Positions 5,741 to 64,000 of a stretch of DNA of 64,000 nt are shown piece after piece. How positions within the stretch are numbered: position 1 is the first letter of the stretch; every line of letters starts with the position of its first letter. The notes beneath the pieces were generated by a model that saw only the letters and a program-made list of their open reading frames with translations, ran no database searches and was not told the DNA's origin. Both the position numbers and the translations under genes were made by a program. The DNA comes from Branchiostoma floridae. Lineage: Eukaryota; Chordata; Leptocardii; Amphioxiformes; Branchiostomatidae. The stretch covers positions 14,489,378-14,553,377 of the forward strand of contig NC_049995.1 of the NCBI RefSeq assembly GCF_000003815.2, given 5' to 3'.

Positions 5741-5812
5741 ATCTATATAGGAAAGGCGAGGGATTTTCCTGGATAAAATTCAAACGACTGTCGACAAGAT
5801 AAAGGATAAAAC

Positions 5813-6193
5813 ATGCTGATTGAAGGTTTCCAAGGCCGTACCGAGCTGCTCAACGACAGTCTTCGGGAGGAAGTGGACTCGTTCATGAGGGAAAACGTGA
5901 CAAATAACGGTACCTTGCACGTCGAACCGTACGACGGGGTTTCAGTGGACCCGAACGCGTTCATATACATCATAGTCGTTCTCCTATTCTATGTGGTGAG
6001 CCTATCCATACTAATGGTACAATACGTCAGGGGAGAGAAGGAGGATATTGATCTCATCCAGTACTACGAGAACTTCGTGAAGAGGGAGTCATTTCAGGAC
6101 AGGTTCAGGGTCAGGGACTTCACCAGGGATAGAAAAGGGAACCGAATCATTGCCAGAGACTGGGAGAAGTATGGGCCGTGTTCTCTCGTCTGA
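5813..6193 (+). CDS. KCNE-like single-pass membrane protein (126 aa)
   Basis: Predicted small type-I membrane protein resembling KCNE beta subunits, which assemble with voltage-gated K+ channels and modulate their gating. Seen: an extracellular N-terminus with three N-glycosylation sites (N14, N28, N32); one hydrophobic span at about residues 49-71 starting IYIIVVLLFYVV; then a charged juxtamembrane stretch and a tyrosine pair. The Y-I-hhV-hhFYhh layout of the span resembles KCNE3/KCNE4. The length fits the family's 100-220 residues, and an uninterrupted reading frame fits the single coding exon usual for KCNE genes. The C-terminus CSLV matches a class-I PDZ ligand (S/T-x-hydrophobic). The ATG at 5813 is the first in frame. 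Similarity is confined to a short segment, so another one-pass family remains possible. No partner channel lies in the window. Confidence 0.6.
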   Translation: MLIEGFQGRTELLNDSLREEVDSFMRENVTNNGTLHVEPYDGVSVDPNAFIYIIVVLLFYVVSLSILMVQYVRGEKEDIDLIQYYENFVKRESFQDRFRVRDFTRDRKGNRIIARDWEKYGPCSLV

Positions 6194-23060: not shown

Positions 23061-23810
23061 GGTGCTCCCGTGGAGGCAGGCAGGCCGGTACTGACGGTAC
23101 CCTGGATGGTAGACACTTGTGTCACCTCCTGCTGGCCGGGCAGTATCCTGAAAAGAGAAAAACGTTTGAAATAGTCCAAAGGTCATTACATCTCATGGAG
23201 AACAATGTGTGCCTTTGATGCTAGACACCTGGTATCCACTAGTTTTCACAGAAGTCATGGTTTCAATCCAAGCTGTACATCACTGATTATACTATAAATA
23301 TAGCAACCTCGGTGACCTCAAACGTCCCATTACTGAACACTGCACATATCAGCTATAATTACTTAAAAATCATTGTAGGAATTGCATAAGCACCTATGTA
23401 GTTAAAAAAGGAACAAACTGTTTCTATCGACTCCAATCGAGTCCACAAGCCATTTAGAATCACGCACAGACGCAGACACAGACACAGACAGACGAATGTA
23501 ACATAACGAAAATTGTCTACTGACTTTCCGAGGATGTGCTTCTTGAGGAACCGCCAGAGCCTAGCTCGTGAGCTGGCCCGGAAAGCCCAGTACAGGTGCG
23601 GGTTGATCATGCTGTTAGCGATGTACAACCGCCTCTTTCTCACACAAACACACAAATAGACGAAGGCAAGAAAGATAACATTGTGTACTGACTTCCCGAA
23701 GATGTGTTTCTTGAGGAATCGCCAGAGCCTAGCCCGTGAGCTGGCCCGGAAAGCCCAGTACAGGTGCGGGTTGATCATGCTGTTAGCGATGTACGGCCCC
23801 CTCACACACA

Positions 23811-23875
<65 letters not shown>

Positions 23876-25746
23876 GCAAATAAATACACACATTAGAAAC
23901 GTTGTGTACTGACTTCCCGAAGATGTGTTTCTTGAGGAATCGCCAGAGCCGTGCCCGGGAGCTGGCCCGGAAAGCCCAGTACAGGTGCGGGTTGATCATA
24001 CTGTTAGCGATGTACAGCCGCTTCGCCACGAAGTCCTTATCCTTGTCCATGTCCATGCCCTGCTGGTTCATCACTGTGCGAACCTGAGGTGTGGACGGGA
24101 ACGACAAAAATAAACTCTCACTATTATAATAAAGAAGAACTTTATTGCACGACAATTGTACATGGTACAAAGTATGGCAACAACTCTTGCATAAAGTACA
24201 AAACAGAGGTATAGGATAAAGCTTAACATCATAGTTAACATAACAATAAGGGCTAATATGCATAATTCATTCATATAGTATCATAATGAAGTAGGCTAAT
24301 CATTAGCTTCAGTATTCTTTCTAATAGCGAAGCAGTCCTTGATATATTTGCTTTTTTTTGCATTATGGGAGTACTTTGTACCAGGTATGAACACATTTGT
24401 GTGTATAGACATATAGGACTCATCATGTCTTTAAATGATGTAAAGTTGTAAACCGTATCTCTGTTATATATCTTGTTTGACCCTTGCAGCAGGCCGATTT
24501 TATTTTCATGATTGAGTTATAATTGACAAAGATCAAACAAAAAGACACAAACAGAGCAAAATAGCTTCGTGCATTGAAACATGTCCAGGTTCGGTTACCT
24601 TTTTAGAAATTTCGTTTTTTCATTAGTATGTTTACGTAATCAGTCACATGGTGATTGTTTATCAGTATTGATCCTGAAGCCAAGAAGGCGACAGTGGTCA
24701 TTAACTTGAAAATTTGAAGTTCTGAAGATTTGAAGATTATAAGTTTTTCAATTATACATATTCCCCTGCCTTAGCATCTGAAAAAATGCCTAGTAGTAGT
24801 GGGTAACTAAACACTCAAAAGAATAAGTATTGCTAAAGGGGGTTCTTACCAAATATGGTGTGAGGCAGATGAGAAAGAACATTGACGTCACGATCATCAA
24901 GATGGCGAACTCGCGCTCCTTCTTCAGTTCTTCTGTCTTGCCTGAAGGCTGAGAGGAGGTAAGAAAGATATGAGAACAATCGGTACTTTCCAAGTGATGC
25001 CATTATAGGGGTAATAAAGGTATGAAAAAAGTTATACTTTGAGAGTGATAATCCATATTTTGTCAAATTCATTGAGTTTTAAATCTTACTTTAGAGAAAT
25101 ACAATCTAAAAAAAGAGGAGGGCATACTGTTTAAGTAGGGACAAAATTGATTCTATAGGACCCAATTTACACAGGATAGAGTGTAACATCGAATGTTTAT
25201 TGAAAGATCATTGAAAGGTAATTGAAAGAACATAGAATGATCTTCGAAGCCCTCTTATATACTGTAAATGCATTTAAGTTCGCGGGGATTTAATTTCGCG
25301 GTAGCGGGAAAATGGACTTTTCGCGGCGGTTTTAATTTCGCGGTAGCACCATGCACTGTAACCTCTTACTGTTATGAAAAAATATTCGCGGTGGTCTTAA
25401 ATTCTCGGTGAAGCGGCCACCGCGAAAACCGCGAACATTAATCCACCGCGAACATTTCTGCATTTACAGTATTATACGTGCTTGCAATACCATGAGATCC
25501 GCAGTGCGGCGCCGCATCCTGTAGAGCTCCTGTACCACAGCCAGGTTGCTGAACACCAGAACCACGATCAGGACAAATCCTGCAACGGCAGAGACGGAAT
25601 GGACATTTCAGACACTACGTCACATTGAGAAAGAGAGAACAATGCACTGTCAGAGTTCTCATCTGATACGGCCTAGGAAAATGTTTTGTTTCCTTTTCAG
25701 TCCTAAGAAAAATCAGGGTCCGTTGGTCCGTAGAGATTATCAATCT

Positions 25747-47000: not shown

Positions 47001-48798
47001 ATAATTACATCACTTGCGAGCAATGTTGGAATCAGTAGCAGGTATGACGGCAGACTTCATCCATTCACTTTTAGTTATACTGATTTTAGATCCTCCTATT
47101 TCTACATAAAAGCAGCAACAAAACACACACATACATATATTCGCCCAAGGCAAATAATACCGGATAAAAACTGGTATAAAGACCTACTTGACAATGAAGT
47201 CATCCTGGAAGCACTCCAAGTCGAACTGTTTGATGTTGTTACACACAAACTCCATACACACTTCCAACAGCCGCGGGACCTTGGTGCCATCATGGTAAGG
47301 ATTCTGTAGGAAAATAAGGTACATTTGAAAAATGGGTAAGAATACTCACAACAATTAAATTTGCATTGTTGAATACTTGTGTATCCTGCATTTACAAGGA
47401 CACTAGATATTTTGAAATGGAATGCAGACATATAAAGCATATACAGTGCACAGTTTATTTAGGATCTGTAGTACCAAATCCTTAAATTATTCTGACTTAA
47501 CTTTGTGCTCCTCTGGTCTCTTCAAACCTTTTGTATCTGCTTGACTTTTTATTTTCCCTTAGAAACTCTAGCATTATCCTTACAGTCAGACTTCTAGAAC
47601 AGCGTTCTGTAATATTGTAACAGTGGTGTTCAAATACCGCCTACCGTCCTTGCCCAAGGGCTCTAGATCTTTTGTGGCGACAGCGATAGCGGTCACGATT
47701 TGTAATCCGCCGCCCCGGGTTCGATCCCCCATGTCGGCATGTTTGTTTCTTTCTGTTCTTACTCGCCCCTCTGAATTTCTACAATATTTATGTATTCATG
47801 TGTGGGTAACAACATACCGCTACCTGCGACCCACTTGTATTGTGCCATCTTGCAATCTTAATATTTCAAATCAAATCAACTCCTTACCCTCTCAAACCTC
47901 CTCCTATACAGCGCCCTGACAAGTGTTCTGTCCTTTTCTGGTCTTTCCTCAAACCGTTTGTGTCCCCTGTAGCTGGTCGACTCTCTCACCTCCCTCAGTA
48001 CCTCCTGTTTCTGGTGATGTCTCAGGAGAGGGACTGTCATCAACTCATCTATGTCTACAAAACCTAACGGAGTAAAAAAAAAAAAAAAAAATTATGTTAA
48101 GGTTGAATTGACACTTTATATAGCCCACCACCTATAGTTACTCCAAGGTATTATTACCCTGTTACACACCACTTTGGTAAGAGTGAGACTAAGACTATCT
48201 ACTCTGTTTTCATAGTAGACTAGTACATCATAGTTGCACTTGAATACACTAATTTAGCTCTCTGTTTGACTTTCACACTAGGATTACTTTGCCTGTTTAT
48301 CTATTTCTCTCAATGAATCTCATTCTTTGCTATAAAACTGTGGCTAATTTTTGTATAATAGAGTTTCAAACGTTTTAAAAGACTTTGCGACCACTTAATT
48401 CAAATGATTCAAAATGTCCATTTTGTGTACAATAAAATAATACACTCTAATATGCAGAATACATTTGTTCTTGGTCATTAGATAAATTCATTCAAAACGT
48501 TTTGGAATGTTGTTTGGAGCGATGTCGATGCATCAATCGCAAAACAGAATGAAAACATTCAAGAAAGTGCTGATAATGTGTATTTGCTTTAGAACATAAT
48601 AAACAACTGTACAGAAGAGAAACAATTTTAAACCTCACCTCCTTCCCTCACCTGTAGCCCCTCCTTTTCAGCTCCATACCTTAACAGGTACGCCAGTCTC
48701 TTTCCCAGACGGAGGTCTTTGATTGGTGGGATTGTCTGAGTGCTAACTTCTGATTGGTCGTCTGAATTCACCTGTTCCTCCATAGAGCTTTCGGTCAT
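44040..48798 (-). CDS. Tpt1-N-domain / AMN1-like LRR fusion protein, 315 aa
   Basis: Five exons with matching phases: 48639-48798, 47888-48063, 47188-47303, 45339-45555, 44040-44318. Residues about 28-105 resemble the N-terminal RNA-binding domain of tRNA 2'-phosphotransferase (Tpt1/KptA): LGKRLAYLLRYGAEKEGLQ, then GFVDIDEL, HKRF and LVRAL. The family's essential R-H-G is R40-Y41-G42, and the NAD-binding half is absent, so phosphotransferase activity is unlikely. Residues about 119-315 hold AMN1/zyg-11-like leucine-rich repeats (VPRLLEVCMEFVCNNI, SLDSLDLHDMYF, LISLNLSGCKQVT, LLHLDVSENGL), which in related proteins bind partners, often in ubiquitin ligases. The ATG at 48798 sits just after a poly-A run and an AG acceptor. 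The function is inferred. Two adjacent genes instead of one is possible, but the shared phases favour one transcript. Confidence 0.65.
45651..46977 (-). repeat. Tandem partial copies of the LRR exon
   Basis: Copies of the start of exon 45339-45555 lie at about 45651-45734, 45829-45903, 46100-46252, 46341-46417 and 46618-46768, with remnants at 46832-46862 and 46914-46975. Most keep a CCCCAG acceptor and the CMLHKLRRRRQLT codons; the first has a 2-nt insertion and the third has TGA after DMYFT. A ~515-bp higher-order unit is visible (45829 vs 46341; 46100 vs 46618). Intervening DNA includes (CA)n and MITE fragments. Confidence 0.9.
46054..46104. mobile_element. MITE fragment, TACTGTAAATGCA family
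   Basis: 'tactgtaaatgcatttaagt' followed by 'aaattcgcggtagcggga' matches the left end of 25260-25471. A second, more diverged fragment lies at about 46573-46622 in the next higher-order repeat. Confidence 0.75.
47655..47740 (+). mobile_element. tRNA-like SINE head or tRNA pseudogene
   Basis: 'gatagcggtcacgatttgta' and 'ccgggttcgatcccccatg' resemble A and B boxes; an anticodon-loop-like TTTGTAA (Thr TGT) is present, but the anticodon stem does not pair well. Most likely a degenerate tRNA-derived SINE head within an intron of the LRR gene. Confidence 0.45.
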
Positions 48799-48889
48799 GA
48801 TGTAGTTTTTTTTTTTTTTTTCAATAAGAATATCTGAAAAAAATAATAAAACAGTGAGTGAGTGATAATTTCGGTTTTTGTAGCTTATT

Positions 48890-49085
48890 GATATCTGATG
48901 GGCATCAGCCTCATAGTTAAGCTTTTGGTTCCAATTAGTAGTAGTTGGTAACTGGGAGAACCATGTTTGAATCCAGGAAAGAGCATTCTGGTTGGAGCTG
49001 CATTTGTCTTTCAGCAGGAATGTAAAATGGGGGTCCCATGTTCGAGGAGGTGGCTTGAGCACATTACAACAGCCTCATTACCCCT
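48890..49085 (+). mobile_element. SINE copy sharing tail with 40104-40325
   Basis: A tRNA-like 'gtttgaatccagg' B box is followed by the tail 'aatgtaaaatgggggtccca' + 'tgttcgaggaggtgg'. It lies in the intron between the putative 5' exon and first coding exon of the LRR gene. Confidence 0.6.
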
Positions 49086-51691: not shown

Positions 51692-53116
51692 CATTTTGTT
51701 CACAGTATTGTATATTTTGTTATTGTTTAGAGTTTTAGAGGCCATGTTTCCTTGGGGCTACCTGCTTTACTGGACTGGTTTATACTAGTATATTTCTTTC
51801 ACAAATACAGAGATGACACGAAAGAAAAGCAGTCTCAGTAACAAGTACGCGAGTTACTACTAGATACATGTACACATGCATCATATACAAACTATGTCAC
51901 ACCTAAAAATAATAATTCAAACTCAGGTCGCCCCGGAGAATCTCCGGTGGATCACAGGAGCTATCCTGGCGGAGAGTGACGAGAAAACGGACCCAGAAAC
52001 GGTCAAGGCTCTGCAGGAGAAGGGATACAAGCTGCAGGAGTAAGTATTGTGGAACTTATGCCGTTGGTGTTAACAGGCTAGGGGATGAAAAGGGCAAGTC
52101 TACAAAGGGTGTCAATTAATGGTCCTCGTAGGTTCATTGTGGCGTTGTTATAACTGTATAAACTTGTGTCCGTAACTTTTTTGCTACGAGTCATTGGCCA
52201 CCACGTAACACGACCCACCTGTAAAGCGAAGGCCGCTTCGAGGCTACAGTTATGTTATATGACGATATAACGTTAACATGTAGCAGCATATCTTCTCCCT
52301 AATTTAGAAATATCATGATTGAGACCAGGTCGCTATTTCGTCGTTTATTTCAAGCACTTGTATTGCCAATGTTGCTAACCTCAGAAATAAACAGATAGAA
52401 ATGTAAATAAAAAAATCTCCTCAGCTTCCCCGAAGTTGCCCGTGCTGTCAAGACATCCTTCCCATTTGTGAACACCCTCTCAATTATCCTGGCCGTGCGG
52501 AAGGTCTACACTGCACTGTCAGACTATATTAAGGTAACACATGTAAAAACAGTCTTTTTGGTGTACTAATCAACAATGAAATTTTTGATTGTTTTATTTG
52601 GAGTATTACAGATGTAAAACTAAAAGTCAGGATAAGTTTATCAAGAAATATTTATTTATTAAGAAATAAGCCACGATATATATACACCCGAGGATTGAAG
52701 TGATAATGTCAGTGTGCTTTAATTTTGCTACCGAAATGATCAGATTGCAGAATATAATGGTCGTGCACGTGATGTCTGCCCATTTTCAATGTAGACTCAT
52801 TTCACTATGCAAGTACCTGCATATCTATTATATTAGATCCTCTGCCAAGTTTAGAATAGTTTAGCATAACTTGCACTGCAAAATTGTTGTAAATAAGTGT
52901 TTGATTATCTTATTGTATGGTTCATTGGATGATTGGGGATTGGCACATCAGTTAATTGATCGATTAAACGATTGATTGATTGATTTACAGGCCCGTGGGC
53001 TGGAGGCCGGCCCGTTTATAGACGTGTATGACCCTGCTCACACCGTGAGTCACTTCATGGCGCCGCTGGAGCTTCACCAGCTCTTCTACGTGCCTGAGGT
53101 CAAGCCGTCATCTTAA
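50398..53116 (+). CDS. TEX264: TEX264-like ER membrane protein, 197 aa, short form
   Basis: Five exons: 50398-50484, 51322-51480, 51927-52039, 52425-52533, 52991-53116; phases 0,0,2,0. Residues 2-22 form an N-terminal membrane anchor. Residues about 30-190 form the GyrI-like fold of TEX264: GAPPIGKFTGAYKHYRGPY, FGVWYDDPE, LRWITGAILAESDE, SFPFVNTLSIILAVRKVY, DYIKARGLEAGPFIDVYD and HFMAPLELHQLFYVPEVK all align in order with vertebrate TEX264. Vertebrate TEX264 is an ER-phagy receptor and a cofactor in DNA-protein crosslink repair; its ~110-residue disordered tail carries the LC3-interacting motif. Here the stop follows VPEVKPSS, so that tail is absent. A candidate AATAAA lies at 53504-53509. 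Confidence 0.9.
51656..51689. repeat. (CA)n microsatellite
   Basis: Short CA tract in intron 2 of the TEX264-like gene. Confidence 0.95.
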
Positions 53117-54522
53117 ACGTCACAGGCGGTTATATACTACATGCTCAATAGTTTGGATATTCGATTTTCTTTCTTATATATGCCTTTCTGTACTTGCGAT
53201 GGCAGTTTGCATAGGGCATCTTTAAGAGGGAAAGTCGAACAGAAAATAATCTAAAACTATAAGTAAATGGGTCCCAACAAGCGGTGATATTCTGATTTTC
53301 TCCGGAGTTTAGACATTCAGTTTTCTTTCTTACGAACGCCTTTCTATATATACGTGCAATGACACTTTGTTTTGGGCATCACTTAAGTGAGTTTTGATCT
53401 ACAAAACTATTTCTAATCCATTCAGTTTCTTGAATCATTCTAATGCCTCTTTCACTTTTCTTCATGACAACATCTCTGTGGAGAGTTATGGCACTTTTAT
53501 TTCAATAAAAACATTTTTGAATAATTTTATGTTTGACACAGTAATCTTCCAACTAAGATATTACACGACTAACTGTTACTTATAATCACTAATACAGATA
53601 TCAAACCAATATATATCGTATACTTTCATCTGAAGAATGAATTGCATGCAACCTCTTGACACATACCGTATGGTAACTTGTGTTTTCCATTATATGATTA
53701 TATTGATATACAAAAATACACACAGCAGATGTGATACGAGTTCTGCTGAAGATAGTAACTTTACGTTAACCAAAATAACAGGTTATACAAGGCGTTTATC
53801 AGATATCTCTGATATTTCTTTCTTTACGTATAGTACAGTTCTGCACCCTGTTAAAGGTGACACCAAAATTGTCCTCTTTTTTGTCATATTGCAGACATAA
53901 GTATAAATCCACTAGTTCACATGGATAAAACAGTCATATATTTGTACACAAGACTGACTTTCTAACAGTCGTTTTTCTATATGACAATTGATATTAGCAA
54001 TACATGTATCTTAACATGTACGTACAAATGTCATACATTGTACCTGTTACAACTGTCACTCAATGAAGTTCTAATTCTTCTAGTTATAGGTTCAAGGTTA
54101 GAAGCATAATACATTTACATACACGTTTAGTAAATATCAGTGTCTTCCATATTTCTTGCGTATAACTTACACATTCCTTATAGTAGAGGTGTGACATATT
54201 CAAATGAATATAAGTATGTACAGAAATATACACATTTTACGTATTGTTAGTCTGACTACCTTTTTAATCCATCTCTGGGGATACATGTAACATCCTAACT
54301 GTTATATGTAACAAACATGAATACATTGTGTATAGGGGAACAACTTATGGTTTGTACATTTAAATCGTCGTCATGAGCCCTTCCAATTTGTAGTCAACTG
54401 TCCAGTTGTCCAGGTGACAACGTTTTTACATGACGGCATACGGAATTTCTTATTGTTTATTTTCATCCAACTGAAACGCACAGATTGCACACCAGGAAGG
54501 GCCGACAGGGGGCGTTGTTGCA
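53117..54522. other. Convergent 3' region between TEX264-like and receptor genes
   Basis: AT-rich. Holds the 3' UTR of the + strand gene and probably that of the - strand receptor gene. A partly duplicated phrase, 'attttctttcttac/tat...gcctttct', occurs at 53162 and 53317. No further gene seen. Confidence 0.5.
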
Positions 54523-57500
54523 CTAATTGTCGTAACCATAGACTTCGCTTTGGTCGTTTTCGTAACCGTAGATTTCCGCGGCCGGTTCTTGTTGTCTTCT
54601 GTTTCTCACCTGGACGCCTGTAAAAAAAGAGAGTATTATGACATTAGCTTCATGATTCTATCATCAGTTCCAGAATGTACACAGGGAAACAGAACTTAAT
54701 AGTAAAGAGTTTTGAGGTCCCTTCGTACAGCAGTGACTGGAAAGAGGGGGAAATGTGAAAGAGGCAGAGAAAGAGACACGAAGAGAGTGAGAAGGCGAGA
54801 GAAAAGAAGCAGAGAGAGAGGGAAAGATAAAGACAAAGAAAAGAGATAAAGGAGAGAAAGAGGGTGACAGATGGCGAGAGAAATCTAGAGAGAAGAAAGG
54901 TGCGGAAGGGACACAGAGAGGGAGGTAGAGACGACCGGAAGCCTAGGTATTCATACTTACGTATACTGTACTAAGTTCATAGGAGCTAGAGGTTTAATGA
55001 TAGCAAGGTCAAAGATATTTTGCTTTCCGTAATACTCGTACGAATTCCGTTAAAGTTGAATGGATACTTAGGCACACCTGGAGACGGGCAAAAAATCATT
55101 CCAGATAGGTAAAAAGTGCATGCTCAGTACTCGAGACATCAAACTAGGAATTCTAAGTTCCGCTGCAGTACCATAGCGCGCAGCTAGGGAGCCCAATGTC
55201 TAATAGTGTCAAGGTCTTATAAAAACCTACCCACGTATCAAATCAATACAATCCATCCAAGCTAGCGTTCTCGAGTTATGCTGGTATTCTACAAACATAC
55301 AAATAAACGCTACCCAAAGTCTAGCCATCTCGGCTTGAAGGTATGTACAGTAGAAGCCGCTTAATGCACGGCCTGTTTGCCAGTGAATTTCGTGCAAATA
55401 TCCGGCCGGTGCAATTAGGCGAAGTTATCTAGCTGGACCGCACCGGTTTGGGATTTTGGGATTCCGTGCAGTAAACAGAAGTTTGTGTTAATCTATTGTG
55501 CAATTAATTGGCTTTTACTGTAATGATAACTTACGTGGCGGTCTTTGTGCTCTCCTGGCGGACTCCGGTCGGGGCCCGGCCGGCGGTGGGGGCGGCACTT
55601 TTCTCGTCTTCTTCCTCCCTCCTGCAGTACCGTGTGGAGACGCTGTGTGGTGCGGGGACTGAGTTAGAGGCGTTTGTGTGGGTGGTGGGGGTGGGGGAAG
55701 ACTGGGGAGATCTGCAGGGGGTAGGGAAGGGGGAAGTTGGGAAGTTTGGAAGTGACTAGGGGTATCTTCTGGGGCTGGGGGAGGGTCGAGCGAGGGCATA
55801 CTGTCCATGGAGGCTATGGAAGGAAACTGTTCATCATCGCAGTCCGGAGGGGGAGGGAAGTCGTGTACTGGGTCATGTTGTGCTGTGTAGTCGTAGTACA
55901 GGTGTGGGTCCTCGTGTGACAAGGGTTGCGGGTTAGATTCTTCAAAGTTCTGATACATCGATGGGTCTTCTTGTGTTACATTTGACTGCGCCGCGAAACC
56001 GGTATTTTGGTAGACCGGTTCGGCTGTCTCGAATCCGGATTGTCCGGCGTCTCCTGAAGCCGGATACTGGTCACCTGAAACCGGATACTGGTCACCTGAT
56101 ACCGGATACTGGTCATCTGAAACCGGATACTGGTCACCTGAAACCGGATACTGGTCACCTGAAACCGGATACTGGTCACCTGAAACCGGATACTGGTCAC
56201 CTGAAACCGGATACTGGTCACCTGAAAACTGATTCGGGTCGTTCCCATACACGGCGTCCTGCTGCGCAAGCGCGTCGTCATGGTAACCGTAGTTGGCCGC
56301 GCCCTGGTGATGGTTCAGTTCTTCCAGAGGCGGCTGATCGTAGATGTCGTCATCAGTAGATCCCGGATTGAACTGGTCCGGCTGTGGTTCGACGTACACG
56401 TCAGCATTCACATTGACGTCATCGTAGGCGTCATCTTGTTGGTGGGCTGGATTGGCCAATCCGGCGTGGTCGACGTACTCCTCATTTGCATACGGGCCGT
56501 CCTGGTTCATCTATGATGAAGATTGGGATAAAGTATTGTAATTTTCATGTTTCTATTATTTCGACGTTGCCAAGGATGATAACTTAATGGCTGTTGTTTA
56601 TCTTTAGCCTCTACCAGGCTCCACAGGTCGCCGGAAAAATAGTAGAAACTGGCCAAATAAAACAAAAACCACGTCAGAGGAGTTAGATGGCCCAGGGGTA
56701 CAGTTTGCGACCTAAAGCCGGCCAACACTCCTATGCCTATTTCCAAGTAGGCTTTTATTCCTAACTTGGTCAAAGTTCATTCGGCCAGGTGGGAGACTGG
56801 TAGAGACTAGTTTATCTTACGCAGTGCCACATTGTCCTTGTCTGTCTTCAAATTGCAAAGCAAAAGTTAACTTACAATGTTATTCTACCTCAACTCTTTA
56901 AAATATATATACTAAAATCATGCAAATTACAAGAACAAAATTGAGTTCTAAACCTTGATTAACAATACTATTCCACCTCAACTCTTAAAGATATCTAATA
57001 AAACCATGCTCTAAACCTTGACAAAACACCATAATTAAGTACCTCCGGATTTCTCACACTATTCGGGCCAGGAACGTAGCTGTTTCTCTTCTGCAAATCA
57101 GACGAGAAGGAAATTATTGAGTGTTCAATCAATCTGATACATTTCCCTAAAACAATCGCAAAATTTACAATTTGAAATTCTAAAAGTGTATACCAATTGC
57201 AAGTTCCACCAAATGGCAATTAGGGCGGCGCCCATCTCGGTTTATGTAGCCCTGCTCGGCCGCATAGCTTAAATGTGCAATCACTACAGCAGGGGGCTAC
57301 TTCAACACAGACCACCGCTGCTGTAGTGATTGCACATTTAAGCTTAGTGGCCACATGTACGGTAAGATTTATTATAAAGGCTACTTACCCTTTTCTTGGA
57401 CTTTCTCTTCTTCATCTGTCGTCATAGAAACAAAAGAAAAATATATTGCATCATTACAATCATGGTTTTATTTATTTTTGTCACCTTACAACCCGGCCAC

Positions 57501-58684
57501 TGATGGTCCGGGTCAACGGAAAAAAAATTAAAGGGAGCACCATGAAGTAACAGTCACTGCATTTGTGCAGTGTAGGTCACTTGGTCACTAGAACAAATTT
57601 TATTGTGCAAAAAAATGATGAATTTATGAAAATATCAAGGCGATGGTCTCACCCCAATGTTTTCTTCCCCTTCGTCGGTCTCCTCCCGCGGTTCCCTTCG
57701 CCTCCGTCTGATACAACAGCAGATGATGCCTATAATGCCACCCGTCACGACAATGCCACCACCTGTACCTATCAGTGCCCAATGCCATGGGAGTAACACT
57801 ATCCCTTTTGTTGATGTAATAACGCGACATTGACCATTGTGATCGCATCCATAGTCCGGGTTGCAATTCTCATGGCAGCATCTCTCACTCCCGTCGCCAT
57901 AGCAACCGGTTGTACACTTGTCATGGCAACAGCTGCTACCAGAGCTACCGTAGCATCCTTTATCTTTACATTGGACGTGGCAGCATAGCTTAGAGTTACT
58001 CCAAGGTGGTTCCAAGTCGCTTGGGCATTCGTCGACGCATTCGAGTTTTATCGAGTAGCCCGCCGGTTCGGTTATTGGCTTTTCTGTTGAACTTGTGGCG
58101 GTCGCCGATGTAGCGTTTGGATGCGTTGACGATGACGTAGCATTATCAGTGACGTCAGGTGATTGTGACGTAGTTGTAAGTCCAAACGTCAGAGTCCGAG
58201 AAAGGGTAGCTATTACCGTGGTCGGTCCAACGGTCGCTGCTGTTTCAGCGGTTGTCTGTTCCGTCGTATTTGTTCCAATAGGGGTCGTTGCTTCACTGTC
58301 GTAAACAACGTCTTGCACGATAAAGCTAGATATATTACAACTTGTACAATCTTTATTCTCTGGGCCAGAACAACGTCCACAACTGTCATGACATGACTCA
58401 CAACTTCCGGAAACGTTTGGACTTCTCAACTCACAGTACTCTGTTTGTGAACAGTTCCAATTGCTGTCGCAAACAGAATCTGGCGGTGGTTTGACCGTTA
58501 TTGGCATTGTGGTAATTTTGTCCGTAATGCTCGTTGTTTGCATCGCAGTCTGTGTCTGGGTAGTTATTCGTTCTGTTGTGGTATAACTATGCACACACTG
58601 GACCTGTAAAGGATAGGAAAGAAAAGTCACATGTAAGAAAGTTCTACTTTAACAACGTCATTATACTCCTTTTATTTTCTTGCA

Positions 58685-58725
<41 letters not shown>

Positions 58726-61700
58726 CTCTCTTTCCCTTTCTCTTCCTCTCCCCCTTTCCCTATCGTTCTCTACTCGTTTCTTTCCCTCTATCCCATTCCC
58801 TCTCCCCTTCCCCCTCCCTTTCTCTATCTCTCTCATTTTTCTCTCTGTCCTCTCATTACATTTTTTTAAACATGAGATTTAATGTCGCACACGATTTCTT
58901 TCTTCTTTCGCCGTTATGAAGCCCTGCCTTTCCCAAATCTGCTACGAGAATACCTGATAGAATGTGGGAAAAAGAAACTGAAGCTAATGTTACTCCCTAC
59001 AAATAGAATGGATTATTCCGACAGCCTGTTTACCCGAAATATACCAACATACCAGCAATATTCAAGTCCTATGAACTTGTCTTTGAAGGTCACCGACCGA
59101 GACATGACTCAGCGAATAGAGAGAAACAGGTGAACGTGCAAGGATGCATGCACAGTTCATATTACATTTATCAAGTAAGTTCCCTCTACCCTCTCGGACC
59201 AACGTTATTTATCTGTTTCATACGTATGTAAATTCATCGCCTTAAATAATACACACTGTTCTTGGTAAGGAGATTCCTCTTTTTAGTCTAGATCTGTTAT
59301 GAAATTGGAGCCTTTTCCACATTCTAATTGCCAAAGAAAAATACTCCTTGTGCTTAATTAAAAAAGAAAGAAGGAAAAAGAGAGTGCAACAAATTCCATC
59401 CCCTACAAGCAGATAATTATTCTGATCTTTTGTTTACTCAAAATAAGACTAACATACCAAGAACGTTTAAGCCCTTCTGGTGATCTCGTCTCTGAACGCC
59501 TCCAACCAGAAGGAATCAACAAATAGTCAGAAACAAACGAACCTTGATAAACAAACGCACAGGTGCAAGGTACAGTAAATATTACAATAGTCTAGGTTTC
59601 CTATATTTCCTGAACACCTGTTTCTTGCGCAAGTATTAGTATTGATACTAGGCTTCTCTTTATACGAAGCGCGTATTCGACGCCTCTTCTTTATCATAGT
59701 CCATAGTCAGTAAAACCTATAGCTATATTATGCAACCTCAATCGCAGACTTCGTAGCTACACTTTTTGTTGGCTTATCATGTGCTGTTTGGTCTATCGTT
59801 TGTCAGTTTCCTTAAGCCCCCTTTACAAATCAAGAATTTAGCTCGGCCGAGTTGTCAGCGAGCTCTAAATTACGAGGAGGTNNNNNNNNNNNNNNNNNNN
59901 NNNNNNNNNNNNNNNNNNNNNNNNNNNNNNNNNNNNNNNNNNNNNNNNNNNNNNNNNNNNNNNNNNNNNNNNNNNNNNNNNAGTTTCTTCGTCAGCATCA
60001 GGGTCACACCTCAACGTAAGTTAGAGTTTGCTGGCACTTCGGCCGAGCTAAATTCTTGATTTGTAAAGGGGGCTTTATGAAAATATGTTTCCTACAATCA
60101 TCCAGCATAATTAATCTAAGGATAGAACTGTTGCATCATGAGAAAACAGGGGAATGATTTGCGGCTATCACATGATCCTTCACTGAGCGATGTAACATAT
60201 GTACACACTCATGCATCGGTTGGATGAGTGACAATTTTCTCCAGGGTCATTTCCTCCTTGGCTCACGAAGGAGTCTTAAAAGATAAGCAGGCGTTACTAA
60301 GTCGTCTACAAGGAAGTAAATAAATACGGATGATTCAGATTCTCCCGATGACTCAAACATTTCCCTGTCACGACAAAGTCTTACCCTAAGGACTATATTT
60401 CTGCCTTGTCATATAAAGGATCCCTCTATTTTTATCAACGTAATTAAAATATAAAGCTTATAAACTCTACATGGAGAATTATTCTAATCAGCTTAAGCTG
60501 TCATTTAGCGAAGAGGAGAAGAAATGTGCTTTTTTATGTGCAGCTATCTTTTGTGTTTACATGTATTGTAACATTAATATTACAATAAATTCAATTTAAC
60601 TGACAAAACGTCAAACGCGGACAGTAGTGAAGAACTATCGTAAATGTTGTGTTCGTAATTCAGCAGTACAAAAGGAAAAATAACCAAAATCAATCCAAAC
60701 CTCAAGTTTATTTCATTATAAATTCTACCGAAAACATGTTTACTTTCTTTATATCCTAAGTAATACTTACCATTGTCCTGAGAATCCCACACCAGACACA
60801 GTGTGTTTGTTTCCGTCTATAGCAACGGTTACTGATACGTGAAGAAATGTCTGTGAGAAACGGTTGGTCTGATCATTTCACCTGTCCGTCCCTCTAAATT
60901 ACTTACTTCCCCTTTTTGTCCCTTTCAAATCGCCCCCCTTTCTATTTTCTCAAGTAACAGAATGCCGTGAAAAACACAGTTAACAAACCGCTGCTCATAA
61001 ACAAGTCGGTTTCGTAGAGGAGGTTCTTTTGAAAGACTTCCCCAAACTGTAACTCGAGATGGTGTAGAAACAATTTCTTCACATGTGCCAGCCACAACAC
61101 TTGTCTGTTTCTGCGTGAATTCTTTTTAACCTTTTAAGAGTATTTCACAAGAAGTCATTCGAGGGAGTTTCCCCTTGAAATATTAACAGAATATGCCCTG
61201 CAGAAAGGTCTCTTATACACTGACGATTAAACACTCTAAGCGGTACCTGTAATATTTTTAAAGAGTTTAAGGCAATAACTCAGTGACCCCCTCCAAAGTT
61301 TTACATTGTAATATGACAAGTATTATTCACTACACACTAACACAGTACATACTATTTAGTAAACAGTATATATTCGTGAATAAACCACAATCGCCTACCA
61401 CAAAATTCCGCCTATCTTTTTGAAAGTAAACTGCGGTGATAATGTTAATCGTAAGAACCCCTAACCCCATTAGTTTTACATCAAAATGTGCCACGAAAAT
61501 TAAACGTTATACATTCGCGACTAAAAATCTACATAAAAACGTGCCTATAGCCAAAACAGCTACAAAGATCAAAGTACAACCGTACTCAGGAGATCAACAA
61601 CAGTTAAGCGCGCCCCTACGTGATAACCCCTTCCCCAATAAGATTCCTTTGATTTATGCAAACTGTTCCAGTAAAAACTAACTTTTTATAAATTACTAGT

Positions 61701-62553
61701 TATCAACACATATCATTGCAGGTTGAAAATTGGTAACAAATCAAAAGCGAGAAAGCAGAAACTAAGCTTGTATCTATATGTCTAGTTACCACTGCGCACT
61801 TAATGTATTTACAGTCGGTCACACTGTGAAAAATGTTTCAATATTTGCACATTCCAGAACGCAAAGGTCAAAAACCAAACATACATATTTTTCTACATAC
61901 GTTAAATCACAAATTTGAACTTTGAAGCACTTGACTCTTATACATAGCCCAATCACGTATTAACTATATCTGACACGTTGTCATCATGTTTAGACGAAAT
62001 TGAAGTAAAAATGACAATTAAGTTCTTTCCATTCACGTCCGTCACCTTGGCAATATGTATACATACCCTTAGAGAGGAACTTAGGATTCAAATCGCAACA
62101 ATAAATTAAGCCATACTCATAAAAGAGATTGGATGTTCACAACAAAATTGTTAAGTACACAAAACAGTTATATTGCAGTTGAAGTGTATAGTATACCAAG
62201 CTGTGTAAATGTATTCTCAAACAACACTCAACGACACGGAAACCCCCATGCATTCACAAGACTTAAAAGCGGAACATATCATTAACTCTAATCTTTACCT
62301 AAACCGTTGTTTTTGCATTTGACAACAGGCGAGCTAAAACCACTGTTATGTTTATTATGTTTACTGGTAGACACGCTAGACTACAAGTACTTATCCAAAG
62401 GTCTAAAACCTTTCAGTAAGGTAAGAATACTAGCGAACAACGTACGGTAACAAACACGGAAGTAAAAACCTTCGAAAATTCCCTTACCGTCAAAACAGCA
62501 AGAAAGGCGACGAAAACCGCTCGCAATCCGTTCCTCTTGTCACCGACCACCAT
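54523..62553 (-). CDS. Furin-like Cys-rich type-I receptor with tyrosine/proline docking tail, 720 aa
   Basis: Six exons, phases agreeing: 62488-62553, 57653-58603, 57389-57415, 57043-57090, 55535-56510, 54523-54617. Residues 1-22 are a signal peptide (AVFVAFLAVLT). The ectodomain has a Thr-rich stretch, a furin-like repeat (CESCHDSCGRCSGPENKDC), several N-glycosylation sites, and insulin-receptor-like units of the form CCHxxCxxGCYG. TM is about residues 297-320 (IGTGGGIVVTGGIIGII), followed by RRRRR. The cytoplasmic tail (~395 residues) has no kinase. It shows many tyrosine motifs (YDQP and YVEP, Crk/Nck-type; YQNT and YQNF, Grb2-type), eight DQYPVSG-type heptads (about 460-515), FPPPP (EVH1 ligand), polyproline runs and a C-terminal YGYDN. 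Inferred role: an adaptor-recruiting surface receptor phosphorylated by other kinases. No named orthologue recognised. Confidence 0.75.
54750..54930. repeat. (GA)-rich simple sequence
   Basis: Purine-rich tract of GAGA/AAAG motifs in the last intron of the receptor gene. Confidence 0.85.
56062..56229 (-). repeat. 21-bp coding minisatellite, 8 copies
   Basis: On the + strand, 'ggatactggtcacctgaaacc' repeats eight times with three visible variants (gaagcc, gatacc, tcatct). On the minus strand it encodes eight heptads, six SGDQYPV plus SDDQYPV and SGDQYPA. All units are 21 bp, so the frame is preserved. Confidence 0.97.
56605..56809. mobile_element. MITE, TAGCCTCTACC family, 9-bp TSD
   Basis: The inverted ends TAGCCTCTACCAG / CTGGTAGAGACTA are flanked by a perfect 9-bp duplication GTTTATCTT (56596-56604, 56810-56818). 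It lies in the receptor intron 95 bp upstream of exon 5. Confidence 0.85.
57266..57344. repeat. Perfect 27-bp stem hairpin, 25-nt loop
   Basis: 'agcttaaatgtgcaatcact' + 'acagcag' (57266-57292) is exactly complementary to 57318-57344; the pairing continues imperfectly outward through 'ggcc'. It is intronic, between two short receptor exons, with a size like a pre-miRNA or tiny foldback element. Confidence 0.9.
57389..57415 (-). other. 27-nt microexon encoding MKKRKSKKR
   Basis: Bounded by ACGACAG acceptor and AGG|GTAAGT donor, phase 0 on both sides. It adds nine residues, seven of them basic, to the juxtamembrane tail of the receptor. The next exon (57043-57090, 48 nt) is also phase 0/0, so both could be skipped without frameshift. 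Confidence 0.7.
58686..58870. repeat. (CT)n tract and pyrimidine-rich stretch
   Basis: Pure (CT)n at 58687-58722 followed by about 130 bp of C/T-rich sequence. Leu/Ser-rich frames derive from it. Confidence 0.95.
58871..59812. other. Receptor intron 1, two related blocks, otherwise nothing
   Basis: 'ataccaacataccagcaata', 'ttcaagtcc' and 'gtttaccc' at 59018-59070 resemble 59431-59475, suggesting an old ~400-bp duplication. No exon supported. Confidence 0.4.
59814..60076. mobile_element. TIR element with ~37-bp ends, interrupted by gap
   Basis: 'aagccccctttacaaatcaa' + 'gaatttagctcggccga' on the left is repeated inverted at about 60040-60076. The interior contains a 100-N gap (59882-59981). 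Non-autonomous as far as visible. Confidence 0.85.
59882..59981. other. Assembly gap (100 N)
   Basis: Exactly 100 N, a conventional placeholder, so the true size of the missing interior is probably unknown. Confidence 1.
60077..62487. other. Receptor intron 1, one exon-like segment of uncertain status
   Basis: AT-rich. About 60775-60854 (-) is bounded by a CTCACAG acceptor and an ATG|GTAAGT donor, but it is 80 nt long and would shift the frame if joined between receptor exons 1 and 2. Otherwise nothing seen. Confidence 0.45.
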
Positions 62554-63453
62554 TTTGAAGACTTGAGTTGTATGAATTCCTCGGTTTATGTCGCTAGTTT
62601 AGCGGTAAGTTCACAAGTTGCTCGTTAAAAGCTAACACGCCTACCACTACCGGACCATGCAAATATGTTTTCGCTGCCAAGTTGCCGTGACCTAACGTCT
62701 CAAAACGAGGCGGCTTCGGACGATTCCAAAACCAACCAAAAAGGGGGTTACATTAATTTAAGTCAATTCAAAAGTATAATGAAAGATAAATGTTCTTTCT
62801 ATTACTGCATATCTAAACTTGAATGTTAATTCAGATGTAAAATTAGTATATTTCAATGTATATAAGGAATTGAGTATAATGTACAACTTCTATGCCCCCC
62901 ACTGTACGCATAGTTGGTATCGCCGTTAGTGATTGCAACATAGGATTGGGGCGATCTATCAAAGGTCGTCTTACACGTAACGTCTTATAATTAGGGACTT
63001 TCCAATGCCCAAGGCGCTAGACACTTCCTGAAGTTCCTTTTCTTACACTCTAGTGACCTCAATTTTCCTAGTCATGTGTGAGGAAGAATGACCAGACAAA
63101 GCCAAAGCGCCAATAATTTTTTAGAGTTTTGTCAAATTTTGTCAGAGTTGAGTCGAGTACTGAGGTTTCTTGGAAATTTTTTTATTTTTTTCTCGGAGAA
63201 ATCTATGCAAGAAATGATATATCTTAATCTGTATCTATATAGCCGGTATAACCACCCTTTGGCTTATCACACCAGCTTCGCAGGCACGCGGCGCGGCAGC
63301 AGCTGGTTTATATATACTAACGTTAGTAGTTAAACCTACAAATGTATACCTGGTAGTAGTGGCCCCTTTTTGCTGACCCCTAGGCCTTTGTTTTTATTTC
63401 CCAAGCATTAAGAAACCGTGTATGGTGCATGATCCATTTTTGTTAACGTTGGG
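62554..63453. other. Upstream flank of receptor gene, no gene seen
   Basis: Presumably holds the promoter of the minus-strand receptor gene just above 62553, a moderately GC-richer patch (62560-62720) without a clear TATA box. The + strand open frame at 63088-63333 has no supporting features. Confidence 0.4.
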
Positions 63454-63667
63454 TACTCTCCAAGCAGAGGTTAGGCTCCGGCTGGGTTTTTTAGTCGTTT
63501 TTATCGGGCTTTCTATTTTGTAATTTTTCTTGAAGTACGCCAGCTAGGTTTTGATACGTATACAGCAAGATAAAATACAAAACAGAAAGCCGCGATAAAA
63601 AACGACTAAAAAGTTAAAAAAAACAAACAAAAAAAACAGCCGGAGCCTAACCTCTGCTTGGAGAGTA
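63454..63667. mobile_element. MITE with TACTCTCCAAGCAGAGG ends, 9-bp TSD
   Basis: The 214-bp element has ends TACTCTCCAAGCAGAGG + TTAGGCTCCGGCTG and its complement, flanked by a perfect 9-bp TSD AACGTTGGG (63445-63453, 63668-63676). A second inner inverted pair ('tttttagtcgtttttatcg'/'cgataaaaaacgactaaaaa') extends the palindrome. No transposase. Confidence 0.9.
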
Positions 63668-63676
63668 AACGTTGGG

Positions 63677-64000
63677 TACTATTGACAGGTCTCACTGTAC
63701 CTATCTTTGCAAAGTTCAAACCCATATAAGTACACAGCACATGTTTTCCACTTGTTAAACAGCATACTATACTGTCGCCCGCCAGACTTGTTTATCAAGA
63801 TTTTATTTTTTATGTTGACCTTTGGCGCCACGGGTCAGTCACTAGGTGATTGTTCTGTGTAAGTTCTCACGGGCTGAATGTTTTTGTGAATATTCATTCA
63901 CACGAAAAGGTATTCCGGTTTGTTGTGTGATGTTCAACACTCACAGAACACCGATTCGCAACCCTCGTATTGTGCCAGAATTTATAGCTGTATACATTGC
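63677..64000. other. No gene seen
   Basis: Unassigned sequence to the window edge. 'gaatgtttttgtgaatattcattcacacgaaaa' forms a minor imperfect palindrome. Confidence 0.4.

Follow-up and report, generated by a model that had tools for sequence, protein, structure and literature searches.

In this study, we describe a six-exon gene on the minus strand of a 64,000-nucleotide stretch of Branchiostoma floridae DNA (the window, C17:14489378-14553377), whose predicted product is probably a non-catalytic, single-pass surface receptor-scaffold that works in the manner of CD6, nephrin or LAT. The gene runs from 62553 to 54523, ends in a TAG stop and encodes a predicted protein of 720 residues, laid out as a signal peptide, a furin-like (FU) cysteine unit, a Thr/Ser-rich stalk, three CCHxxC units, one transmembrane (TM) span and about 395 cytoplasmic residues. 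This reading rests on the predicted anatomy, on motif enrichment in the tail, on indications that the tail exon is constrained, and on the finding of no kinase in the gene. The gene structure appears well supported; its parts are ordinary, and their combination seems unusual.

All five introns are GT-AG, with phases 0, 0, 0, 0 and 1. Splice sites were ranked among all 554 AGs and 562 GTs on the minus strand of window positions 54000-63000, using a weight table based on the vertebrate consensus. Exon 1 (62488..62553) provides the ATG and signal peptide in 22 codons and closes on a donor ranked 4/562. Exon 2 (57653..58603; acceptor 1/554, donor 9/562) encodes the FU-type unit, the stalk, the three CCHxxC units, the TM span and the juxtamembrane CCC and RRRRR. 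It is followed by two microexons, a basic one of 9 codons, MKKRKSKKR (exon 3, 57389..57415; acceptor 19/554, donor 2/562), and one of 16 codons, KRNSYVPGPNSVRNPE (exon 4, 57043..57090; acceptor 7/554), whose donor, GAG/GTACTT, is the weakest site of the model at 55/562. Exon 5 (55535..56510; acceptor 14/554, donor 6/562) encodes the docking tail with YAN, YDDV, YVEP, YDQP, YGN, two YQN, eight DQYPVSG units, FPPPP and polyproline, and exon 6 (54523..54617; acceptor 4/554) adds the C-terminal EIYGYEN...EVYGYDN and the stop. An AATAAA-type signal lies past exon 6 at 54456 on the same strand. The two longest N-free open frames of the window, of 337 and 331 codons, are those of the two large exons; the next has 197, and the longest frame in 60 windows simulated under a dinucleotide model had 223. 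A first-pass annotation of this DNA had proposed a six-exon gene for a 720-residue protein, and the GT-AG introns, the mostly high-ranking splice sites and the length of the frames, well beyond chance, uphold it. The signal peptide and single TM span that it described correspond to the two stretches exceeding a mean hydropathy of 1.2, residues 9-27 (signal peptide, peak 1.77) and 302-320 (TM), the latter bordered on the cytoplasmic side by CCCIRRRRR. It had also called the receptor kinase-less, and Pfam found no kinase domain in the 720-residue protein nor in 10 further minus-strand frames scanned out of 23 frames of at least 60 residues in 52000-64000, where the sole match of any kind was far below cut-off (E value 0.098). 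Within intron 1, a 75-base inverted repeat (59807-59881 and 60008-60082, 87% identical) surrounds an N gap and resembles a small terminal-inverted-repeat element.

The cytoplasmic tail is enriched in some docking motifs and not in others. We reduced its 7-residue repeat to one copy (352 residues, 19 tyrosines) and compared 14 patterns with 20,000 shuffles. YxN was seen 6 times against 1.12 expected, a count reached in 7 shuffles, and this enrichment holds after correction for the 14 patterns. The proline motif [FWYL]PPPP occurred twice (0.02 expected; 1 shuffle), and five-proline runs three times (0.02 expected; 10 shuffles); for both of these, shuffling is too lenient a control because of the proline runs. 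YDx[VP] was seen twice (0.35 expected; 914 shuffles), any SH2-type pattern 9 times (4.17 expected; 211 shuffles), [RK]xxPxxP twice (0.66 expected; 2,768 shuffles), and [VILED][IV]Y[GDE], a Src-type context picked post hoc, three times (0.07 expected; 1 shuffle). YxxP was at chance (2 seen, 2.89 expected; 16,437 shuffles), and a pattern count of the tail gave zero YxxM, NPxY, YxxL/I of the immunoreceptor tyrosine-based activation type, PPxY and PxxPx+. Every motif on the first-pass list, namely YDQP, YVEP, YQNF, YQNT, FPPPP, polyproline and a DQYPVSG-type repeat, was found, and YANE, YGND, YDDV and the terminal IYGYEN and VYGYDN extend it. Its view that the tail carries docking motifs for signalling and actin adaptors is supported, with enrichment of YxN, [FWYL]PPPP and polyproline and none of YxxP. 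The accompanying label "Cas-like" is rejected because YxxP is at chance; Pfam also gives no SH3 or Cas domain.

Published work ties several of these motifs to particular partners: pYxNx is described as a Grb2 motif (PMC10968029), YDxV as a Nck motif (PMC12203975), and [FWYL]PxΦP as the Ena/VASP EVH1 motif, for which acidic flanks are said to help (PMC8789275). The residues directly after FPPPP are DCDDE. For the scheme that follows, we infer the ligand, the kinase, every binding step, the glycosylation and the palmitoylation. A ligand would cluster the small cysteine-rich, furin/ErbB-like ectodomain borne on its glycosylated Thr/Ser stalk, and the juxtamembrane CCC would probably be palmitoylated. 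The disordered tail would then be phosphorylated by a borrowed kinase, most likely of the Src family, whereupon the six YxN sites could recruit Grb2-family adaptors (Grb2, GADS), YDDV and YDQP could recruit Nck or Crk, and FPPPP could recruit Ena/VASP. Together the docked adaptors would initiate Ras-type and actin signalling.

The tail exon exists in a second copy. Genome-wide searches, covering 513,431,437 bases in 431 contigs, placed this copy of exon 5 at C17:6800353-6801348, 7.7 Mb away; the duplicated block, including part of intron 5, spans C17:6800093-6801348 and does not include the first 18 codons of exon 5. In 40 kb of sequence at this site, exons 1-4 and 6 left no convincing trace (best E 1.9), and the copy lies upstream of a Death-domain frame (6796387-6796743) on the same strand. 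Its frame is open over 360 codons and holds 12 repeat units to the 8 of our gene, by manual count on the sequence. All six coding gaps between the copies are multiples of 3 (6, 84, 6, 6, 18 and 9 nucleotides), and the intron gaps are 2, 4, 175, 30, 4 and 6. The 11 shared non-repeat tyrosines are all kept, 7 of them in an identical 7-residue context, and FPPPP is replaced by LPPPP, which retains the EVH1 motif. Over 237 non-repeat codons the two copies are separated by 24 synonymous and 25 non-synonymous changes, giving a synonymous divergence (dS) of 0.162, a non-synonymous divergence (dN) of 0.047 and a ratio of 0.29 (Fisher p 6e-5). The ratio is 0.09 in the first part (71 codons, with YDDV, YVEP, YDQP and YGND), 0.44 in the middle and 0.31 in the last part. 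In none of 5000 neutral simulations were amino-acid changes so few, and a stop codon arose in 80% of the runs. Of the differences, 14 fall at codon position 1, 8 at position 2 and 27 at position 3 (p 0.0014 for the last). Were one copy alone under constraint, dN/dS should lie at about 0.5 or above. These comparisons give moderate signs of purifying selection on the exon pair.

The ectodomain, of about 270 residues, carries 25 cysteines within residues 23-285 and six NxS/T sites outside the cell. Residues 65-118 (58316..58480, minus strand) hold CESCHDSCGRCSGPENKDCTSC, which has the FU cysteine spacing C..CH..C..C.{7}C..C, matched by none of 200,000 shuffles; the consensus was read off ErbB3/EGFR alignments, and EGFR's own first unit is spaced slightly longer. 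Beyond a stalk of 86 residues with 41% Ser+Thr, three CCHxxC units occupy residues 205-285 (57815..58057, minus strand), a number of CCH..C matched by 0/100,000 shuffles. One of them has the ErbB spacing CCH..C..GC.G.{5}C, and this long form (CCHxxCxxGCxGx5C) appeared in 2 of 200,000 shuffles. In the PDB, the FU unit matched three entries only, all ErbB3/EGFR and sub-threshold (E 0.027, 1.0 and 1.3), and the whole of exon 2 matched ErbB3 at E 0.41 in an alignment that takes in the CCH units. The first-pass annotation had named this region furin/insulin-receptor-like and had proposed that furin-like E values be checked. Pfam Furin-like (PF00757) matched neither the whole protein nor its pieces at an E 10 setting, at which most matches weaker than about 0.1 are still lost to the HMMER filters; the CCH fragment matched no Pfam family, and the five genome matches to the PF00757 profile do not include this locus. 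The label is weakly supported: we dropped insulin-receptor homology by profile and retain a similarity of cysteine spacing, for which the exact FU pattern and the sub-threshold ErbB3/EGFR matches speak. No second copy of the ectodomain exon was found in the genome, where the four other matches were all weak (E 0.19 to 0.72), and a single-sequence AlphaFold model of the CCH domain reached a mean predicted local distance difference test score (pLDDT) of 49. Several further matches were taken as chance or composition: the integrin alpha-IIb TM segment with exon 2 (E 0.89), and the sub-cut-off Pfam families Orthoreo_P10, Phage_1_1, TMIE and Mucin with the protein or exon 2. The CCH fragment alone found only the unrelated chains BMX (E 0.11) and an aspartic proteinase (E 1.5) in the PDB, likewise taken as chance.

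The DQYPVSG repeat is a 21-bp coding minisatellite with eight units (56049-56240), and its stretch was matched at tens of other places in the genome. It accounts for the sole Pfam family over cut-off, the grass ice-binding beta-roll PF21300 (30.8 bits against a cut-off of 30), and for a match to the solved ice-binding protein 3ult (E 1.8e-8), both confined to the repeat. Despite these matches we judged this to be shared periodicity in a cytoplasmic tail and not membership of the beta-roll family. Apart from this repeat-driven match Pfam assigns no family, in agreement with the first-pass remark that it knew of no named family with this combination.

Several points weigh against a receptor-scaffold. 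The ectodomain is without a significant homologue in Pfam, PDB and genome searches, and the join of exon 2 to exon 5 comes from splice sites alone. An ATG opens both exon 3 and exon 5, and "novel architectures" in lancelets are reported to be prediction errors in some cases, gene fusions included (PMC4967905). Short motifs say little about actual binding, the tail lacks [FWYL]PPPPx[DE], the strict ActA-like form, and the DQYPVSG repeat, given its match to an ice-binding protein, may be a folded spacer. With the CpG rate raised 5-, 10- and 20-fold, amino-acid changes were as few as observed in 18, 39 and 87 of 1000 neutral simulations, and the flanking intron, with 9 differences over 253 sites, has diverged less than dS. 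Because of these simulations and this low intron divergence, constraint on the tail is likely rather than certain.

The locus may instead be two genes, or two main transcripts, with exon 2 ending as a small mucin-like membrane protein and exon 5 encoding, from the ATG at 56510, a cytosolic scaffold of its own. We consider this unlikely. In its favour, reading through from exon 2 would end in VRPSP and a stop at 57635; the exon 5 ATG directly follows an in-frame stop; AATAAA-type minus-strand signals lie between the two exons at 57599, 57471, 57467, 57368 and 56754; the tail exon was duplicated without the ectodomain; and gene fusion is the very kind of lancelet prediction error noted above. 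Set against this, the exon 2 donor and exon 5 acceptor both rank high, the gap of about 1.1 kb is bridged by two in-phase microexons of which three of the four sites rank 2 to 19 (the fourth being the 55/562 donor), and a tail rich in phosphotyrosine motifs would fit beneath a TM span.

A slightly lower chance attaches to a protein that is mainly an actin or adhesion scaffold. Its important motifs would be those for EVH1 and SH3, its tyrosines would have no role of their own within an acidic, disordered tail, and its 7-residue repeats would serve as a spacer. Polyproline and FP4 motifs are present in both tail copies, and the excess of polyproline runs alongside chance-level YxxP suits this account; the YxN enrichment, the retention of 11/11 shared tyrosines and the lowest dN/dS in the tyrosine-motif part do not. 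The stalk's Ser+Thr content, the six extracellular NxS/T sites and the short cysteine units could also describe a cell-surface mucin or decoy that takes no part in signalling and whose tail evolves fast. Such a protein would not be expected to carry a long tail that is enriched in docking motifs and shows signs of constraint, and we regard this reading as very improbable.

As a receptor-scaffold, the protein can be set beside several known systems. CD6 is a kinase-less receptor with a cysteine-rich SRCR ectodomain. Its tail tyrosines are reported to recruit GADS and SLP-76, and also GRB2 (PMC5440646). The likeness is one of sequence motifs: CD6 is a vertebrate protein with a different ectodomain, and FPPPP and the DQYPVSG repeats are additional here. 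LAT carries YxN sites. Transmembrane adaptor proteins (TRAPs) of the LAT/LIME/PAG type are described as having a single TM span, a short ectodomain, a long tail bearing as many as 10 tyrosine motifs and, in some, juxtamembrane cysteines, with a CxxC palmitoylation motif in four of seven members, LAT, LIME, NTAL and PAG (PMC2803307). The predicted protein shares the single TM, the juxtamembrane cysteines and the long tyrosine-motif tail. Its cysteines form a CCC at the TM/cytoplasm border, where those four members have CxxC, and its ectodomain of about 270 residues with cysteine units is not short. Nephrin is reported to bear Nck-binding YDxV sites that are phosphorylated by Src-family kinases on clustering, with an actin output (PMC12203975); it has an immunoglobulin ectodomain and three YDxV, whereas here there are one YDDV and one YDQP, and YxN dominates. 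Robo receptors are kinase-less, with an Ena-binding proline motif, polyproline and an immunoglobulin/FN3 ectodomain; the resemblance, drawn by description only, lies in the lack of a kinase and in the proline motifs, and the ectodomain differs. p130Cas is a cytosolic protein with an SH3 domain, many YxxP and a tyrosine- and proline-rich docking region, the last of which is the shared feature. The ErbB/EGFR furin-like region has similar cysteine spacing to the FU and CCH units, but unlike ErbB and the insulin receptor this protein has no L-domain or kinase match, and its short, isolated cysteine units are split by a mucin-like stalk. Among the papers listed in literature searches, often a fraction of all hits and with subscription papers and proteome databases outside their scope, none showed an amphioxus furin-like, kinase-less, YxN-tailed receptor, and an annotated orthologue may well exist. 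The first-pass phrase "undescribed system" is too strong, as published receptors and adaptors (CD6, nephrin, the LAT type) already borrow a kinase and bind Grb2, GADS or Nck. The gene also offers a case in which the exon for a docking tail was duplicated without the ectodomain.

As a separate observation, C1:17306858-17311604 is another candidate kinase-less furin-like receptor, possibly a single gene, in which a Furin-like and GF_recep_IV ectodomain is split by a Thr/Ser stretch and followed by ZU5 (E 9e-16) and then a Death domain (E 1.5e-6), an order that we take to be that of an UNC5-like tail.

Possible partners of the receptor-scaffold are on record in amphioxus. For B. belcheri, Grb2 has been published, and its immunoprecipitation from amphioxus gut is reported to yield FrLRR (PMC10199209); Lck (PMC8211107) and GADS, SLP-76 and Itk (PMC5431462) have been published as well. 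The Ena/VASP tetramerisation profile has one match in the B. floridae genome, and also exceeds its cut-off in one of 14 control genomes, an archaeon. A 2017 paper (PMC5431462) reports that amphioxus yielded no LAT-like molecule; as possibilities its authors name some unknown membrane-bound recruiter, or the absence of any. Since GADS, SLP-76 and Itk are present with no reported LAT, the gene is a testable candidate for the anchor, and a concrete one for the membrane molecule suggested in that paper; the predicted protein has the anatomy that a LAT-type recruiter would need. That it is in fact the missing anchor of the GADS/SLP-76/Itk signalosome, a receptor-type, ligand-sensing LAT equivalent with six YxN sites and a tail exon able to duplicate as a module independently of the ectodomain, is a speculative and quite unlikely proposal. 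If true, the LAT docking role would be carried outside vertebrates by an unrelated cysteine-rich receptor. Such a protein would work like LAT and not be LAT, because its ectodomain exceeds that of TRAPs and there is no LAT homology: the Pfam LAT family had no match in the protein (E 10 setting), nor in the genome at E 1, in an exon-by-exon search that could miss LAT and whose controls included no LAT-bearing genome.

Elsewhere in the window, Pfam placed one of six neighbouring open reading frames over cut-off (a G-protein-coupled receptor profile, 24.1 bits against 23.8) and three below it, and gave two no match. The frame at 5810-6193 (plus strand) resembles a KCNE-type potassium channel subunit, and Pfam gave it no match; at 48628-49074 (minus strand) lies a partial Tpt1/KptA-like frame (E 0.0025, below cut-off). 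At 23359-24266 (minus strand), a C-terminal segment like that of a G-protein-coupled receptor (YIANSMINPHLYWAFRASSRARLWRFLKKHI) occurs three times in less than 1 kb, which may reflect either the duplication of alternative exons or a stretch duplicated in the assembly.

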